Source: Terriglobales bacterium (GTDB taxonomy: Bacteria; Acidobacteriota; Terriglobia; Terriglobales; Acidobacteriaceae). From it: a DNA stretch of 64,000 nt. The notes beneath the pieces were generated by a model, which ran no database searches, had not been told where the DNA came from, and saw nothing but the letters and a program-made list of their open reading frames with translations. Below, one piece after another: positions 5,037 to 64,000 of the stretch. The stretch lies in contig JAICWP010000025.1 in assembly GCA_025934735.1 (NCBI GenBank), positions 1-64,000 of the forward strand, read 5' to 3'. Position 1 is the stretch's first letter. Each line of letters begins with the position of its first letter. A program made the translations under genes and the position numbers.

Positions 5037-5092
5037 GGCTCAGCGCCGTAGGCGCGCCATTGGAAAGCCCAGGACGGGAGTCCTGGGTCAGG
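5037..5092. repeat. Composite hairpin repeat in the rpsR-rplI gap
   Basis: The 277-base gap 4876-5152 contains no gene. It holds AGCGCCGTAGGCGCG followed by AAAGCCCAGGACGGGAGTCC, the latter with a CCCAGGAC/GTCCTGGG stem. Both modules recur at 61203-61275 as AAAGCCCCGGACGGAAGTCC and AGCCCCGTAGGGGCG, with changed stem bases that preserve pairing. Repeated CCACAAGCCA and CTGAGG(C/G)CTCAG words lie just upstream. Confidence 0.6.
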
Positions 5093-20204: not shown

Positions 20205-20245
20205 GAACTCCGCGTGACCTTTGCGACCTCTGCGGTGAGCTTTTT
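20205..20245. repeat. CCTTTGCGACCTCTGCGGTGAGC dispersed repeat copy
   Basis: Matches the CCTCTGCG(T/A)CCTCTGCGGT pattern found at 24417, 52389, 56475, 63123 and 63746. It lies in the gap between the DUF488 gene and acpS. Confidence 0.5.
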
Positions 20246-25908: not shown

Positions 25909-25958
25909 GTGTGGGGACGAGGCTTTGCCTCGTCCGGGCGAGCGCAGTTCGCCTGATT
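25909..25958. repeat. GTGGGGACGAGGC hairpin repeat (intergenic copy)
   Basis: GGACGAGGC (25915-25923) pairs with GCCTCGTCC (25927-25935) across a TTT loop, followed by GGGCGAGCGCAGTTCGCC. It aligns along about 50 bases with 59909-59960 and 62962-63025, with compensating changes in the stem. Confidence 0.65.
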
Positions 25959-58406: not shown

Positions 58407-58535
58407 TTGAAGATTGAAGAACGAAGATTGGCGGTTTACAACCGCCGCAATCCGCGGGCGCTTTTCAATCGTCAATCTTCAATTTCCTCGCAATGTCATC
58501 CTGAGCGGAGGCAGACGATTCGCTTGCGAATCGTC
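58404..58535. repeat. GATTGAA inverted heptamers plus GTCATCCTGAG element
   Basis: GATTGAAGATTGAAGA (58405-58420) faces CAATCGTCAATCTTCAAT (58468-58485). Immediately after, GTCATCCTGAGCGGAG (58495-58510) precedes a perfect hairpin GACGATTCGC-TT-GCGAATCGTC (58514-58535) and GCGAAGTCGAAGGACC. A GCCATC/GTCATCCTGAGGG-type relative lies at 60862. CAATCAC/CCAATTA words continue to 58660. Confidence 0.65.
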
Positions 58536-58640
58536 CGGCGAAGTCGAAGGACCCCGTGTCTGTTCAGCAGTACCAATGCAGCTCAAGGGAGTTGCTATTG
58601 TGCCGTGATCTTTCAATCACCCAATTACCCGATTACACAA

Positions 58641-60074
58641 TTACTCAATTTGCGGTTTCCTGTACACCACTCCGCCCTTCATCACGAAATTCACCTTCTC
58701 CAGTTCCGTCACATCGCCCAGCGGATCCCCGGGCGCGGCCACGATATCGGCGTACTTGCCCGGTTCGATCGTTCCCACCTTGTGCTGCATACCGAGCAAT
58801 TCGGCGGCAGTGACGGTAGCGGAGCGGATCGCCTGCGCCGGCGTCATCCCGTACTTCACCATGAGAGGAAATTCCTGTGCCGGGTTGACCGTCCATGGGA
58901 AGCCGCCGGCGTCGGTGCCGAACGCAATCTTCACGCCCGCATTCAACGCCCGCTTAAAAGTATCGCCATGAATTGCCACCATCTGCTCCCACACTTTTGC
59001 CCCAGCCGCTGCCCGCCCTTGCGCCACATACTCGCCCACAAACAGCGTAGGCACATAATAGATGCCCTTCTGCGCCATCATCTTCAAATCGTCGGGCGCA
59101 ATGTACATGCCGTGCTCGATCGAATTCACTCCCGCCACCACCCCGTTGTGCACGCCGTTGATCCCGATCGCGTGCGAGGCCACCGGATGGTTTTCGCGGT
59201 GCGCTTCATCCACAATCGCGTTCAGTTCTTCCATGGTGAAGGTGGGCCGGTCCTCGACCACTCCCTTATCGGTTACGCGATAGCCGCCGTCCAGGTAGGT
59301 CTTGATCCAGTCCGAGCCTTTGGAAATCTGCTCCCGCACGGCGGTACGGCAGCCGACCGCGCCATCGCACACCTGCACTCCGTGCGGCCAGTCCGGCCAA
59401 TCCCAGCGGAAGCCGAGCACCGGGTAGGCGCCGGTCACGTCCAGCGCCCGCGTGGCTACCCGCATGCGTGGGCCGTCGGTGATGCCGCGCTCGATGGCAT
59501 GTTTCAGGTCCACGTCGGCATAGCCTGCGCCCTCGGTTTCCAGGTCCCGAATCGTCGTGAATCCGTAGCCCAGCGCCAGGCGCGCCGCTTGCGTCGCTAC
59601 AATCGCGCGGTAGGCGTCCGATTCCTGCAGGATCTGCTTGTTGTAGTCCTCTTCGGTCACGTCGCCCGTCAGCAGCGTGTGCGTATGGGTATCAATCAGT
59701 CCCGGCAGGCAGGTCTCGTGCGAAAGATCAATGAGCTTGGCGCCTCTGGGCACGCCTCGGCCTGCGGGCTGCACCTGTTGGATATTTTCGCCATCGATCA
59801 CTACATCAACGTTGCGCCGCGGCTGCTCCGCCTTTTCGTCAATCAGCGTCCCGCAGCGCAGGTAGGTCACGGCCGGCTTCTGAGCTGCGCTTTGCTCGGC
59901 TGATGTCTGTGTGGCGACGGGCGCCTCCGCCCTTCCGGCCGAGCGCAGCTCGGCTATGGCTCCCGCTTGTAGATTTTTCGTTTGTGCCCACAGTGAGCCA
60001 CTCATGGCGACCATTGTTGCTAGTAGCACTACCAGCTTCGCCAGCACTCTGCTCCTGCTGCTAGTTCTGCTCAT
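58641..60074 (-). CDS. Exported amidohydrolase (imidazolonepropionase/prolidase-like)
   Basis: 477 residues from ATG 60074 (GGAGGAG-type Shine-Dalgarno upstream) with a signal peptide. Metal motif GLIDTHTHTLL, then VASHAIGINGVHNGV, FGTDAGGFPW and a C-terminal ITVEPGKYADIVAAPGDPL-type ending (GTIEPGKYADIVAAPGD). This is the type annotated as Xaa-Pro dipeptidase-like amidohydrolase. Residues about 38-55 (just after the signal peptide) are encoded by a dispersed hairpin repeat. Confidence 0.85.
   Translation of the reverse strand: MSRTSSRSRVLAKLVVLLATMVAMSGSLWAQTKNLQAGAIAELRSAGRAEAPVATQTSAEQSAAQKPAVTYLRCGTLIDEKAEQPRRNVDVVIDGENIQQVQPAGRGVPRGAKLIDLSHETCLPGLIDTHTHTLLTGDVTEEDYNKQILQESDAYRAIVATQAARLALGYGFTTIRDLETEGAGYADVDLKHAIERGITDGPRMRVATRALDVTGAYPVLGFRWDWPDWPHGVQVCDGAVGCRTAVREQISKGSDWIKTYLDGGYRVTDKGVVEDRPTFTMEELNAIVDEAHRENHPVASHAIGINGVHNGVVAGVNSIEHGMYIAPDDLKMMAQKGIYYVPTLFVGEYVAQGRAAAGAKVWEQMVAIHGDTFKRALNAGVKIAFGTDAGGFPWTVNPAQEFPLMVKYGMTPAQAIRSATVTAAELLGMQHKVGTIEPGKYADIVAAPGDPLGDVTELEKVNFVMKGGVVYRKPQIE
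59909..59960 (-). repeat. GTGGCGACGGGCG hairpin repeat inside the amidohydrolase gene
   Basis: Read on the plus strand it gives GTGTGGCGACGGGCGCC... CCGAGCGCAGCTCGGCT and aligns with 25909-25958 and 62962-63025. It lies in antisense relative to the gene and encodes about residues 38-55 (AELRSAGRAEAPVATQT) without a frameshift. Confidence 0.6.
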
Positions 60075-60123
60075 TATGCCGCTCCTCCTCGCCTTTTCCC
60101 GGGCCGCCGAGTGTAACAAGAAC

Positions 60124-60215
60124 GGGTAGCTGATGGTTAGTAGTTGGTTGCTGGCCTTGCATCTTGCCGACTTCCTCGTGATGGAGCGTTCCACCAGCTA
60201 CCAGCTACTACCTAC
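60124..60215. repeat. GTAGTTGG/ACCAGCTACC heptamer inverted repeat
   Basis: GGGTAGCTGATGGTTAGTAG (60124-60143) faces ACCAGCT ACCAGCT ACTACCTAC (60193-60214). Same heptamers as 47821-47967. The rest of 60216-60515 shows TATTTGCGCTTATCCGCC-type words (60351-60380) and no gene. Confidence 0.65.
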
Positions 60216-60515
60216 GGTTTTTTTTGAAAACCTGTGCTCCCGCTGTGCAAAAATTTCCACGGGCCGCTTCGCTGCCCAGGGTGATTGCTGGCGGCGGGCG
60301 GGAACACCGCATTTTTAGCGGCTATTTACCTCCGCTCTAAACGAATTCCTATTTGCGCTTATCCGCCTTAATCCGCGGCCAAGAATTTACCGTTGCACCA
60401 CTCTTCGGGGATTGACGCTACCAACCTTCGCGCGTAGATTTTTCGCCATAGCGCGCCAGCCGAACAGAAATCTTCAGGCCACTCGCAAGCCCACCCTGCA
60501 ACCAGGAGAAGTGCC

Positions 60516-60824
60516 GTGAAGGATGCCGACGATTGGAAGGTTTACCGTACCCGCTATCTGGTGCGCGCCCGCCAGCTCACCGCCCCGCTCACCTTGGTGG
60601 ATGGCTCCGGCAAGGAACAACGCGGACACGAGGGCGACTACCTGGTGGAGTGTTCCGACGGCACCCATCGTATCGCGCCACGACAGGTTTTTGAGGACAT
60701 CTACGTGGAGATGGGAGCTCCCATCGAGGCGCGCATGTTCTCCCTGATTCGCGGCTTGCGCAAATCGCACGTCCTGGCCGAAGATGACCCCAACCAGCCC
60801 GTGCTCTTCAGCCTTACCGGATAG
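60516..60824 (+). CDS. Small protein, unknown (PGDYLV-like)
   Basis: 102 residues from GTG 60516, with AGGAG eight bases upstream. The core EGDYLVECSDGTHRIAPRQVFEDIYVEM resembles small proteins of environmental bacteria that carry a D/P-GDYLV...P-x-x-F-x-x-x-Y motif. No enzyme motif. It stands alone between repeat-rich gaps. Confidence 0.6.
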   Translation: MKDADDWKVYRTRYLVRARQLTAPLTLVDGSGKEQRGHEGDYLVECSDGTHRIAPRQVFEDIYVEMGAPIEARMFSLIRGLRKSHVLAEDDPNQPVLFSLTG

Positions 60825-60861
60825 CAGCTTCTCTTTCGGCGAGGTTTAACTCGCCTCCCGG

Positions 60862-60905
60862 CGTCATCCTGAGGGCTTTAGCCCGCAGATCTCGCCTGCA
60901 GTGCA
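60862..60905. repeat. GTCATCCTGAGGGCTTTAGCCC repeat
   Basis: CGTCATCCTGAGGGCTTTAG (60863-60882) resembles 52284-52300 (GCCTCATGCTGAGGGCC) and 58495. It is the first repeat in the gene-free interval 60825-61347. Confidence 0.5.
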
Positions 60906-61016
60906 GCCGAATTCCGGTGGGTTGTGCAAGCTTTGGCCGCCAGGCATTCTCTCCGGCCGGCAGCCCTCGCCAGATCAATAGTTTAGCGATAAAATACTAT
61001 ATGTAGCGGTTTAGTA

Positions 61017-61045
61017 TTGACAGGCCCTATACCTAGCAGTACTGT
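61017..61045 (+). promoter_or_regulatory. Candidate promoter for the ribonucleotide reductase gene
   Basis: TTGACA (61017-61022), a 17-base spacer and TACTGT (61040-61045). A small A/T-rich stretch upstream (60985-61016: GATAAAATACTATATGTAGCGGTTTAGTATT) contains two TTTAG words and a near-palindrome CTATATGTAG, a possible regulator site (NrdR-like boxes are A/T palindromes of this kind). The predicted 5' leader is about 300 bases. Confidence 0.45.
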
Positions 61046-61179
61046 GACGGTCCTAGGCGATGTTTTGGGGCGAGTCAAAGGCCCGGGCTAACCTGAGGGA
61101 GGGAGGCCCGGCGTCGCTCGCGGTGGACGTTTCGCGGCAAAATCGTGGTCGGAAGCATCGTCTGACCTCGCCAGGCTCC

Positions 61180-61300
61180 AGCCCCTTCAGGGGCGAGATA
61201 GTAAAGCCCCGGACGGAAGTCCGGGGTAGAGATGTGGATGAGTTGCCGAGCCCCGTAGGGGCGGCACAGGCCGGGCGTGAGCCCGGCGCGCAACAACGAA
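61180..61300. repeat. Composite hairpin repeats in the nrdJ leader
   Basis: CAGCCCCTTCAGGGGC (near 61180-61196), AAAGCCCCGGACGGAAGTCC (61203-61222), AGCCCCGTAGGGGCGGC (61248-61264) and GGCCGGGCGTGAGCCCGGC (near 61269-61289) are successive hairpins. Two of them recur at 5037-5092. They lie in the mRNA leader of nrdJ; no cobalamin riboswitch core is visible. Confidence 0.55.
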
Positions 61301-61347
61301 TTGCACCAACTCCGCGCCAGCGGATCGTAGTCGAGGAGAGAGCGATC

Positions 61348-64000
61348 ATGTCAGAAGTTCAAGAGAAGCTGACCATCCCATCCGCCGAAAAGACCAACAA
61401 GAAGAAGGCGCCGGGCCTGACCTTCCGCCGCTACTTCTCCAAGCCGGGCGTCTCACCTTACGACGAGCTGGAATGGGAAAAGCGCACCGCCCAAATCACC
61501 GACGCCCAGGGCAACGTCATTTTCGAGCAGAAGGATGTGGAGGTCCCTAAGGACTGGTCCATGACCGCCACCAACATCGTGGCCTCCAAGTACCTGCACG
61601 GCAAGCTGGGCACGGCGGAGCGCGAAACCGGGGTCCGCCAGCTGGTGGGGCGCGTGGCTGAAACCATCCGCGACTGGGGCATGGCCGGCGGCTACTTCCA
61701 CTCTCCCGAAGACGCGGCCACCTTCCACGATGAGCTCGCCTACCTGCTGCTCCGCCAGTACGCTGCCTTCAACTCGCCGGTGTGGTTCAACGTGGGCTGC
61801 GACCGCATTGAGCCCAACTCCGACGCCCGCAACTGGCACTGGAACCCGCAGCTGGGGCGCATCGAATTCGGCGTCACCGGCTACTCCAAGCCGCAGTGCT
61901 CCGCCTGCTTCATCAACTCGGTGCACGATTCGCTCGATTCCATCCTCACCCTGGCCAAGACCGAAGGCATGCTCTTCAAGTGGGGTTCCGGAACCGGAAC
62001 AAACCTGAGCTCGCTGCGCTCCTCCACCGAATCGCTCTCCGGCGGCGGCACCGCCAGCGGCCCGCTCAGCTTCATGAAAGGCTTTGACGCCTTCGCCGGC
62101 GTCATCAAGTCCGGCGGCAAGACCCGCCGTGCCGCCAAGATGGTTATCCTCAACATTGACCATCCCGACATTGTCGAGTTCATCGAGTGCAAGTCCAGGG
62201 AAGAAGCCAAGGCCCATGCCCTGGTGCGCGAAGGCTACGACGGCTCTTCGCCCGATTCCGAAGCCTACAGCTCCATCTTCTTCCAGAACGCCAACAACTC
62301 CGTGCGCGTGACCGACGACTTCATGTACGCCGTGGTCCGCGACACCGAGTTCTCCACCAAGGCCATCGTTGACGGCCGCGTTGTCAATACCTACAAGGCT
62401 CCGGAACTGCTGCGCAAACTCTCTGATGCCACCTGGCACTGCGGCGACCCCGGCATGCAGTTCGATACCACCATCAACCGTTGGCACACCTCCAAGAACA
62501 CGGCCCGCATCAACGCTTCCAATCCGTGTTCCGAATACATGTTCCTGGACGACTCCGCCTGCAATCTGGCCTCGCTCAACCTGCTGAAGTTCGCGCCCAA
62601 CGGCACTTTCGACATTGAGGCCTACCGCTACGCCGTGGATGTGGTCATCACTGCCCAGGAAATTCTGGTGGATAATGCCGGCTATCCCACAGAGACCATC
62701 GCCAAGAACTCGCACGACTACCGTCCCCTGGGCCTGGGTTACGCCAACCTGGGCGCGCTGCTCATGGCTTCCGGGCTGCCCTATGATTCCGATGCCGGAC
62801 GCGACTACGCCGCTTGCGTCACCGCCATCATGTGCGGCCAGGCGTATCTCCAGTCGTCCAAAATCGCCGAACTCTGCGAGCCTCTGGTTCCTATCACGGA
62901 GGCGGTGAAGTCAGGCCTGACCGGTGCCCGTGTCGCCGATTCCCGTGTGTCCGATGCTCGCGTGGGGACGGGCGCCCTCGCCCGTCCGGGCGAGCCAAGC
63001 TCGGCTCCGCTTCCTGGCTCTGCCTGTCCCGGCTGGTACATCAACCGCGAGCCCTTCCTCGACGTCATCAGAATGCACAGAGCATCTGTCAATAACATAG
63101 GTTCTTCCGCGGCCTCGGCGAATGCCTCTGCGTCCTCTGCGTTAAAGGTGTTGATTGAAGCCTCCAAAGAATGCTGGGACGAAGCGCTCTCCCACGGCGA
63201 GAAATTCGGCTACCGCAACTCCCAGGTCACCGTGCTCGCTCCCACCGGCACTATCGGCTTCATGATGGACTGCGACACCACCGGCGTGGAGCCCGACCTG
63301 GCCTTGGTCAAATACAAGAAGCTGGTCGGCGGCGGCATGATCAAAATCGTCAACCAGACCGTGCCCGCGGCCCTCTTCAAGCTGGGTTACACCCACGACC
63401 AGGCCAATGCTATCGTCAGCTACATTGACGCTACCGGCACCATCGAGGGAGCTCCCCACGTCAAGGATGAGCACCTGCCTGTGTTCGACTGCAGCTTCAA
63501 GCCCGCCAAGGGCACTCGCTCCATCCACTACATGGGGCACCTGAAGATGATGGCCGCGGTTCAGCCCTTCATCTCTGGCGCCATTTCCAAGACCGTGAAC
63601 CTGCCCGAATCGGCGACGGTCGAGGAAATCATGGAAGCCTATCTCCAGTCCTGGAAGCAGGGCCTGAAAGCTGTGGCCATCTACCGCGATGGCTGCAAGA
63701 AGTCCCAGCCCATGGTGACCTCGAAGGAGAAGAAAGAAGAAAAAACCTCTGCGTCCTCTGCGGTTTTGGTTGAAGAGGACCTGAACGCTCCGCCGCGCGC
63801 CGTGCGGCACAAGCTCCAGGACGAGCGCGCCTCCATCACTCACAAATTCAACATCGCCGGCCACGAGGGCTACATCACCGTGGGCCTCTATCCCAACGGC
63901 ACCCCCGGGGAAATCTTCATCACCATGGCCAAAGAAGGCTCCACCGTCAGCGGCCTGATGGACAGCTTTGCTCTGGCCGTCTCCATCGCCCTGCAGCACG
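61348..64000 (+). CDS. nrdJ: Adenosylcobalamin-dependent ribonucleotide reductase (class II), 5' part
   Basis: Reduces ribonucleotides to deoxyribonucleotides with AdoCbl and thiols. The window holds 884 codons from ATG 61348 (GAGGAGAG upstream); the stop is beyond it. Class II signatures include QYAAFNSPVWFNVGC, QCSACFINSV, KWGSGTGTNLSSLRSS, the active-site cysteine region INASNPCSEYMFLDDSACNLASLNL, VLAPTGTIGFMMDCDTTG and HYMGHLKMMAAVQPFISGAISKTVN. Three in-frame segments (about residues 539-560, 585-601 and 798-808) are encoded by dispersed repeats. Cobalamin must be made or imported by this cell. Confidence 0.93.
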   Translation, partial: MSEVQEKLTIPSAEKTNKKKAPGLTFRRYFSKPGVSPYDELEWEKRTAQITDAQGNVIFEQKDVEVPKDWSMTATNIVASKYLHGKLGTAERETGVRQLVGRVAETIRDWGMAGGYFHSPEDAATFHDELAYLLLRQYAAFNSPVWFNVGCDRIEPNSDARNWHWNPQLGRIEFGVTGYSKPQCSACFINSVHDSLDSILTLAKTEGMLFKWGSGTGTNLSSLRSSTESLSGGGTASGPLSFMKGFDAFAGVIKSGGKTRRAAKMVILNIDHPDIVEFIECKSREEAKAHALVREGYDGSSPDSEAYSSIFFQNANNSVRVTDDFMYAVVRDTEFSTKAIVDGRVVNTYKAPELLRKLSDATWHCGDPGMQFDTTINRWHTSKNTARINASNPCSEYMFLDDSACNLASLNLLKFAPNGTFDIEAYRYAVDVVITAQEILVDNAGYPTETIAKNSHDYRPLGLGYANLGALLMASGLPYDSDAGRDYAACVTAIMCGQAYLQSSKIAELCEPLVPITEAVKSGLTGARVADSRVSDARVGTGALARPGEPSSAPLPGSACPGWYINREPFLDVIRMHRASVNNIGSSAASANASASSALKVLIEASKECWDEALSHGEKFGYRNSQVTVLAPTGTIGFMMDCDTTGVEPDLALVKYKKLVGGGMIKIVNQTVPAALFKLGYTHDQANAIVSYIDATGTIEGAPHVKDEHLPVFDCSFKPAKGTRSIHYMGHLKMMAAVQPFISGAISKTVNLPESATVEEIMEAYLQSWKQGLKAVAIYRDGCKKSQPMVTSKEKKEEKTSASSAVLVEEDLNAPPRAVRHKLQDERASITHKFNIAGHEGYITVGLYPNGTPGEIFITMAKEGSTVSGLMDSFALAVSIALQH
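62962..63025 (+). repeat. GTGGGGACGGGCG hairpin repeat inside nrdJ
   Basis: GGACGGGCG (62966-62974) pairs with CGCCCGTCC (62979-62987) over a CCCT loop, followed by GGGCGAGCCAAGCTCGGCT. It aligns with 25909 and 59909 along about 55 bases, encodes VGTGALARPGEPSSAPLPGS and keeps the frame. Confidence 0.7.
63101..63150 (+). repeat. CCTCTGCGTCCTCTGCG repeat inside nrdJ (first copy)
   Basis: GCCTCTGCGTCCTCTGCGTT (63124-63143) is within a Ser/Ala-rich codon stretch (GSSAASANASASSA, about residues 585-598). The 17-base word CCTCTGCGTCCTCTGCG is identical to that at 63746. Confidence 0.65.
63741..63770 (+). repeat. CCTCTGCGTCCTCTGCG repeat inside nrdJ (second copy)
   Basis: ACCTCTGCGTCCTCTGCGGT (63745-63764) encodes TSASSAV at about residue 800, in a lysine/glutamate linker. 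It shares 17 bases with the copy at 63124 and 16 (GCGTCCTCTGCGGTTT) with 24417. Confidence 0.65.

Follow-up and report, generated by a model that had tools for sequence, protein, structure and literature searches.

A REP-like palindromic repeat lies in frame within a variable linker of a class II ribonucleotide reductase in a Terriglobales bacterium

Results

The nrdJ gene and the repeat within it

We analyzed a 64,000-nucleotide stretch of DNA (the window) from a Terriglobales bacterium, a soil bacterium (contig JAICWP010000025.1, positions 1 to 64,000). Here, a palindromic repeat lies inside nrdJ, the gene for a class II (B12-dependent) ribonucleotide reductase, the enzyme that makes the building blocks of DNA (Table 1). 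The repeat belongs to a family dispersed in the genome and is in frame within an intact open reading frame (ORF). It is absent from the nearest sister in our sample, and related hairpins occur in three linkers of the same enzyme in relatives.

The nrdJ ORF encodes 1023 amino acids from the ATG at 61348, with its stop past the window at contig position 64419 (full ORF in locus L031). NrdJ matched the class II model NF005122 with 1321.2 bits (cut-off 859) and PF02867 with 446.8 bits. We found no second match to the NrdJ query in the genome at E <= 0.001, and thus saw no class I reductase; class III reductase was not searched.

Table 1 Positions in the window of nrdJ, its linkers and the repeats discussed here
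Feature	Position	Strand	Evidence or remark
nrdJ, class II (B12-dependent) ribonucleotide reductase	61348..64000	+	NF005122, PF02867
Putative REP element, in frame, NrdJ linker 1	62960..63008	+	R1 62.3 bits, E 2.2e-8 genome-wide
Parts of the nrdJ repeat	tag GTGG 62962-62965; hairpin 1 62966-62987; hairpin 2 62988-63006	+	
NrdJ variable linker 1, about residues 515-566	62890..63045	+	relatives' linkers; pLDDT <50 at 529-554 (weak model)
NrdJ variable linker 2, about residues 572-606	63061..63165	+	tagged hairpins in 7 relatives, none in window
NrdJ variable linker 3, about residues 780-815, start of C-terminal tail	63685..63792	+	hairpins in 30 relatives, none in window; pLDDT <50 at 782-826 (weak model)
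Second short repeat CCTCTGCGTCCTCTGCG, in frame, NrdJ linker 2	63125..63143	+	
Second short repeat CCTCTGCGTCCTCTGCG, in frame, NrdJ linker 3	63746..63764	+	
Putative REP copy in amidohydrolase gene (58641-60194, minus strand)	59909..59957	+	R1 47.6 bits
Putative REP copy beside radical SAM gene, upstream of its domains	25909..25956	+	R1 41.6 bits

The repeat is translated as RVGTGALARPGEPSSAP. Its GTGG tag is followed directly by hairpin 1, with a perfect 9-bp stem (GGACGGGCG/CGCCCGTCC) and a 4-nt loop (CCCT); hairpin 2 contains one non-standard pair. The predicted DNA fold reaches -20.4 kcal/mol (z -2.87), and 3 of 200 shuffles were equally good. A sequence-only reading had proposed a palindromic dispersed repeat inside nrdJ that is translated in frame, and the covariance-model match described below and the intact ORF confirm this. 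It had placed the repeat at 62962-63025, about residues 539-560. The extent is corrected to 62960-63008, residues 538-554.

Linker 1 occupies a position where the closest solved chain, 7b9q, has about six residues. In an AlphaFold2 model of NrdJ, linkers 1 and 3 lie within low-confidence coil.

A dispersed family of tagged hairpins

We built a covariance model (R1) from nine copies elsewhere in the genome, with no window copy in it; its E-values are rough owing to a short calibration. The nrdJ repeat matched R1 with an E-value of 2.8e-10 in the window. Genome-wide, at least 52 matches were found at E <= 0.01 and at least 64 at E <= 1; both totals include the copies used to build R1. These counts are lower bounds because scoring covered 150 of the 2255 candidates. 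Among the at least 64 matches scored, the nrdJ copy is in 7th place. BLAST of the 84-nt nrdJ region against the same genome returned 15 more matches at E <= 1.9e-4, so the same repeat does occur elsewhere in the genome. R1 also places the copies at 25909 and 59909 in this family, as had been proposed; the next-best match in the window has 14.8 bits (E 0.41).

Genomic copies carry GTGG, followed by a short hairpin of varying sequence (GGACAGGCG, GCACAGGCG and GACGGGGC types) and often by a second hairpin, GGGCGAGC-GCA-GCTCGCCT. The suggestion that stems differ between copies while pairing is kept largely stands, except for two mismatched pairs in the 59909 copy. That copy lies near the amidohydrolase N-terminus, after an apparent signal peptide (by eye), in a gene with a PF01979 match (4.8e-45). 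We checked the location of 29 of the 64 R1 matches and scanned the ORFs at 16 of them, plus the amidohydrolase and nrdJ, against Pfam. We read the copies in nrdJ, mutS2 and the amidohydrolase gene as intragenic; none of the remaining copies scanned falls within a matched domain, although some of these may still lie inside a gene (e.g., L067 and L082).

Two of the BLAST matches are near-identical and located at contig ends C49 and C50. At the end of C50 (L008) and the start of C49 (L009), the element forms tandem arrays that are nearly identical in sequence and may represent an overlap in the assembly.

That the nrdJ segment is ordinary protein sequence, resembling the repeat by chance or through GC-rich low complexity, is extremely improbable. 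NrdJ linkers are indeed GC-rich and variable. However, the segment was matched by a model built without window copies. A 28-nt pattern of the repeat (up to 3 mismatches) had itself as the sole match in the window and none in 100 shuffles, which together with the genome-wide R1 E-value rejects a chance origin, and the sister NrdJ lacks the segment. We also considered a regulatory RNA, but an Rfam search of 58500-64000 (E <= 1) gave no match at the insert. Rfam did match Acido-Lenti-1 in the palindrome-rich stretch upstream of nrdJ (61180-61226, 37.8 bits; 61249-61288, minus strand, 21.2 bits) and at 5042-5087 (minus strand, 52 bits; gathering threshold 37). This "sRNA" may be a palindromic repeat and not a small RNA gene, but there were no matches at gathering level in 60.9 kb of 20 other loci of the genome.

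Affiliation with REP elements and RAYT transposases

The spread of repetitive extragenic palindromes (REPs) is attributed to REP-associated tyrosine transposases (RAYTs) of the HUH family. We found five Y1_Tnp matches in the genome, and the three that were scanned are all RAYTs (NF047646, above cut-off). One of the five, L066 (90.7 bits, cut-off 80), is flanked by related copies, with GTGTGGGCACGGGGCTCTGCCCCGTGC-type GTGG-tagged copies on one side and an inverted GGACGGGGCAGAGCCCCGTCC-CCACAC copy on the other. This arrangement matches a REP-RAYT unit. The L062 and L063 transposases have different flanking inverted repeats, and no flanking repeats were seen at L064 and L065.

REPs are described as a GTAG or GTGG tetranucleotide 0-2 nt 5' of a hairpin with a fully paired stem of 7-20 and a loop of 2-5, in the part of PMC6006769 consulted. 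The nrdJ repeat has its tag at 0 nt from the stem, a stem and loop within these ranges, and many dispersed copies, most of those scanned lying outside matched domains. The GTGG is invariant in the nine model copies and in 21 aligned copies, the latter chosen by that tag. In sequence, the nrdJ repeat therefore fits a REP element, a non-autonomous palindrome in which a short hairpin is immediately preceded on its 5' side by a tag of the GTGG/GTAG type. Presumably, a RAYT moved it.

Filled and empty linkers in related NrdJ genes

If all related NrdJ proteins carried the insert, it would be a regular part of the enzyme. They do not. The nearest sister in the sample, L033, is 87% identical and has 34 residues where the NrdJ of the window has 57, i.e., 23 fewer. 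We collected 195 loci, giving 193 ORFs and 174 distinct NrdJ genes. These genes contain 79 perfect hairpins (stem >= 8). Reference residues 520-559, 580-599 and 780-819 account for 55 of them; the remainder are scattered, with a few near 945-974. Among 148 distinct genes at least 70% identical to that of the window (included), 41 were scored as having one or more linkers with a REP-like hairpin. Linker 1 is filled in 19 of 146 readable rows (18 forward, 1 reverse) and has no tagged hairpin in the other 127. Linker 2 is filled in 7 of 147 rows, all forward, and linker 3 in 30 of 135 (17 forward, 13 reverse). The hairpins thus occur in both orientations and have differing stems.

Filled and empty states were scored by eye from the hairpin list and then used in the tree, the counts and the frame analysis. 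Untagged or unlike hairpins were not counted in linker 1 (L046, L049, L112, L115, L201, L231, L236, L237), linker 2 (L050, L151, L156, L163, L210) or linker 3 (L037, L041, L045, L046, L052, L054, L056, L057, L061, L103, L107, L109, L110, L137, L170, L212, L225, L232). Decayed linker-1 copies were scored as none (L034, L182, L189, L191, L193). Four linker-3 hairpins (L096, L176, L136, L191) were counted despite having no clean scripted tag or another orientation. In linker 2, L179 was counted via its second hairpin, and L231 has an aberrant frame.

Across residues 20-510, 77 genes, counting the window's own, share at least 85% identity with that of the window, and 38 of these are filled in at least one linker. 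An insert in nrdJ, initially regarded as unusual, is thus not rare in the clade. In a genus-level sample of 61 genomes, which holds no genome of the host's own genus, 3 of 29 NrdJ genes are filled, the window's included. We therefore dropped the idea that NrdJ is unusually targeted everywhere. A strict REP pattern found 1566 copies in 33 genomes, 19 of them in nrdJ (17 genomes) versus 0.83 expected if uniform; 31 of the 33 genomes were chosen with the NrdJ score in view, and an insert can raise that score.

Some linkers hold other repeats. L046 (genome G006, without the strict REP pattern) has an unlike hairpin, CCCCAGACGC-TTC-GCGTCTGGGG, in linker 1, and L049 has a translated tandem CTCGAAA repeat in linker 2. 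Units containing the tag are repeated at the linker-1 hairpin or its remnant, AHVG three times in L182 and TCCAATGTAGGCGC twice in L117; such units may have arisen through repeated insertion or through slippage. In the window's NrdJ, linkers 2 and 3 contain the short repeat CCTCTGCGTCCTCTGCG, which has six matches in the window (up to 3 mismatches) versus 0.09 expected, the others at 20218, 24412, 52395 and 56473. A stricter expression found no further copy in 195 kb (overlapping) of loci from the same genome.

Control genes

We compared NrdJ with four other genes in 30 genomes, using a REP expression written from NrdJ copies; the genomes were mostly chosen by NrdJ score, so that both choices lean towards NrdJ. 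The expression matched 21 of 30 NrdJ genes, 9 of 25 MutS2 genes (27 loci given), 4 of 27 sucB-like E2 genes (30 given, one genome twice), 1 of 30 IF-2 genes and 0 of 29 PolA genes (30 given). Three copies missed by the expression, L394 in PolA and L432 and L435 in E2, look REP-like by eye. Plain hairpins with a stem of at least 8 numbered 45 in 91.9 kb of NrdJ, 13 in 62.6 kb of MutS2, 14 in 84.6 kb of IF-2, 7 in 82.9 kb of PolA and 10 in 39.9 kb of E2. The low counts for IF-2 and PolA weaken the notion that such inserts are a property of any flexible linker, and the E2 matches indicate that REP targeting is not limited to DNA genes.

MutS2 of the same genome carries a somewhat decayed REP in frame (L076 1501-1549, C5:236493-236541; R1 60.1 bits), inside the aligned gene and just before the MutS_V domain. 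Several relatives have REPs in the same variable stretch. In the genus-level sample (30 best loci, same 61 genomes), MutS2 showed one hairpin, L308, with an unclear tag, besides this decayed copy. In the REP-rich genome G405, no REP was clearly inside a domain, L299 perhaps being one, among 15 of 157 sites looked at and ten ORFs scanned.

The prominence of NrdJ could mean that the hairpin was co-opted, with mRNA or DNA structure tuning NrdJ translation, folding or transcription, or with the peptide altering the enzyme. The biased excess over the four control genes (0 to 9 of 25-30 genes) would fit this, as would the frequent occurrence of REPs inside genes for DNA synthesis and repair, for which altered activity has been speculated (in the part of PMC3733652 consulted). 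However, scoring found no such hairpin in 39 of the 77 close relatives, and among relatives the inserts vary in position, orientation and peptide. Moreover, E2, which is not a DNA gene, was matched, and PolA was not matched by the expression (one copy by eye). The predicted RNA fold of the window copy hardly beats shuffles (z -1.76 and -1.04). We therefore regard co-option as very unlikely.

Insertion sites and the age of the inserts

The clearest insertion is found in L208, where GGC TCC AAT GTA is followed by a 24-nt hairpin and then ATG CCC. The unfilled L038 reads GGC TCC AAC GTA ATG CCC at the same site, making this an exact 24-nt insertion. L115, the closest row to L208 in the tree, is not empty and carries another insert. 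A GTN codon is present at the insertion point in 13 of 19 unfilled linker-1 rows, and this valine codon would contribute the first two bases (GT) of the tag. The 18 forward copies in linker 1 all share a single reading frame. Insertion after a GTN codon would give the single frame and could thus explain it. MutS2 copies are mostly in another frame, and therefore no single peptide is required.

We aligned the hairpins and profiled their pairing in 17 of 18 forward linker-1 rows and 9 of 13 reverse linker-3 rows; less regular stems were left out, which raises the pairing. The 15 distinct linker-1 hairpins pair in 99.3% of cells, with 4 of 9 pairs changing on both sides and a covariation of 0.339 versus 0.121 shuffled. 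The nine reverse linker-3 hairpins pair in 100%, with changes in 3 of 8 pairs. Pairing alone is no evidence of function, as re-insertion of different subfamilies explains it without selection in nrdJ.

Both the frame and the pairing could also result from one ancient, inherited insertion per linker and orientation, its hairpin kept by compensatory changes or by gene conversion with other copies as donors, and lost many times. This scenario is compatible with a REP identity, and the probabilities we attach to the readings do not sum to one. It is favored by the forward orientation of 18 of 19 linker-1 copies, their common frame, and the preserved pairing in both hairpin sets. Against it, both orientations occur at linkers 1 and 3, and filled rows stand beside unfilled sites or different inserts (L102 by L181 and L183; L115 by L208). 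In addition, parsimony on the tree gives at least 17, 6 and 25 changes at linkers 1, 2 and 3, with gains indistinguishable from losses and many weak branches. Genomes G283 and G166 each carry an identical copy of their nrdJ hairpin, GGACGGACGCATTCGTCCGTCC, in the E2 gene. G405 has a GGAG-tagged hairpin in nrdJ that is one base off from a hairpin in its MutS2. This recurrence in three genomes favors insertion or conversion by the subfamilies of each genome. We consider a single ancient insertion rather unlikely.

Discussion

We interpret the repeat, with good confidence, as a REP element that inserted in frame in a flexible linker of NrdJ and is translated and tolerated, the linkers being recurrent landing sites. 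They look like repeated landing sites because many relatives carry similar repeats in the same linkers. In the proposed sequence of events, a REP element would land in frame in a flexible linker, and the added 17-23 residues, rich in Gly, Ala, Pro and Ser, would be translated and tolerated. The REP subfamilies of each genome would land there in turn, and copies would then decay or vanish. The insert peptide is presumably made and is probably harmless. Most likely, the inserts are selfish DNA tolerated in flexible linkers; a function is not the likeliest reading.

Several observations weigh against this interpretation. The copies beside the L066 RAYT are of a sister stem type, GACGGGGCTCTGCCCCGTC, and do not have the nrdJ stem. 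The insert is not a clean single element, as the 23-codon length difference exceeds the 49-nt repeat and includes, upstream, an imperfect threefold 15-nt repeat (by eye). The single frame of the forward linker-1 copies could reflect a single old insertion that was lost many times and whose sequence turned over, and in G239 the nrdJ and MutS2 stems differ. We saw no target-site duplication or insertion intermediate, although no search was made. The AlphaFold2 model is weak (mean pLDDT 63.4) and low in non-linker parts too, and linker 2 falls below 50 at 588-591 only.

A bolder version would make the NrdJ linkers true REP targets. Single-stranded units would enter the reading frame just after GTN codons, adding 24 nt or eight codons in L208, and would be replaced whenever another subfamily became active. 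The recurrent decoration of NrdJ and MutS2 would then alter dNTP supply or repair to a degree that affects the host or the spread of REPs. We regard this as quite unlikely.

In-frame mobile repeats are a direct route to new bacterial protein sequence. NrdJ offers a replicated natural experiment: in dozens of related species, the same three linkers are either filled or empty, and the inserts come in two orientations and from several subfamilies. It makes testable the neutrality of such inserts, the target specificity of insertion and the reason why DNA-metabolism genes so often carry REPs, questions that come from work on Rickettsia and on intragenic REPs.

The element resembles REP/RAYT systems in its GTGG tag 0-2 nt from a perfect short hairpin, its dispersal, its often double or clustered copies and a RAYT between related copies. 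It differs in lying in an essential metabolic gene and in the same linkers across a clade. About 600 REP-like structures are described in the acidobacterium Solibacter (PMC6006769, consulted in part). The parts of PMC3733652 consulted report intragenic REPs encoding residues in uvrA, recB, DNA polymerase I, DnaE2 and others, and different REPs at about the same recB site in two Xanthomonas species. They suggest flexible linkers as neutral places for REPs. The nrdJ insert is the same kind of event, but in this clade a single enzyme is targeted repeatedly, at three of its linkers. In the portions of PMC3733652 and PMC6006769 consulted, nrdJ is not among the genes named for intragenic REPs. The main text of PMC3733652 does not mention ribonucleotide reductase and mentions Acidobacteria once, about transposases. 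The consulted part of PMC9669993, on insertions in the reductase family, does not mention Acidobacteria. Among the top-listed titles and abstract openings in the literature searched on REPs with ribonucleotide reductase or Acidobacteria, with subscription journals mostly outside its scope, none concerned this case.

The palindromic repeats of Rickettsia (RPEs) are also found in frame in many genes, as the nrdJ repeat is, and are about 150 bp long (PMC10969869, consulted in part); RPE-4 and RPE-6 are CGTC-tagged REPs according to the consulted part of PMC3733652. Compared by description only, the nrdJ element differs in its length of 24-49 nt, its GTGG tag and the RAYT genes of its genome. At no more than 49 nt and with GTGG, it is not an RPE in the sense of about 150 bp or a CGTC tag. 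Since protein-coding palindromic repeats are already described in these sources, a repeat inside a coding sequence is less unusual than the sequence-only reading held, and in-frame REPs or palindromic repeats in genes are a known kind of event. What is new is nrdJ as the target, the lineage, the recurrent use of the same linkers, and the presence of both filled and empty sites.

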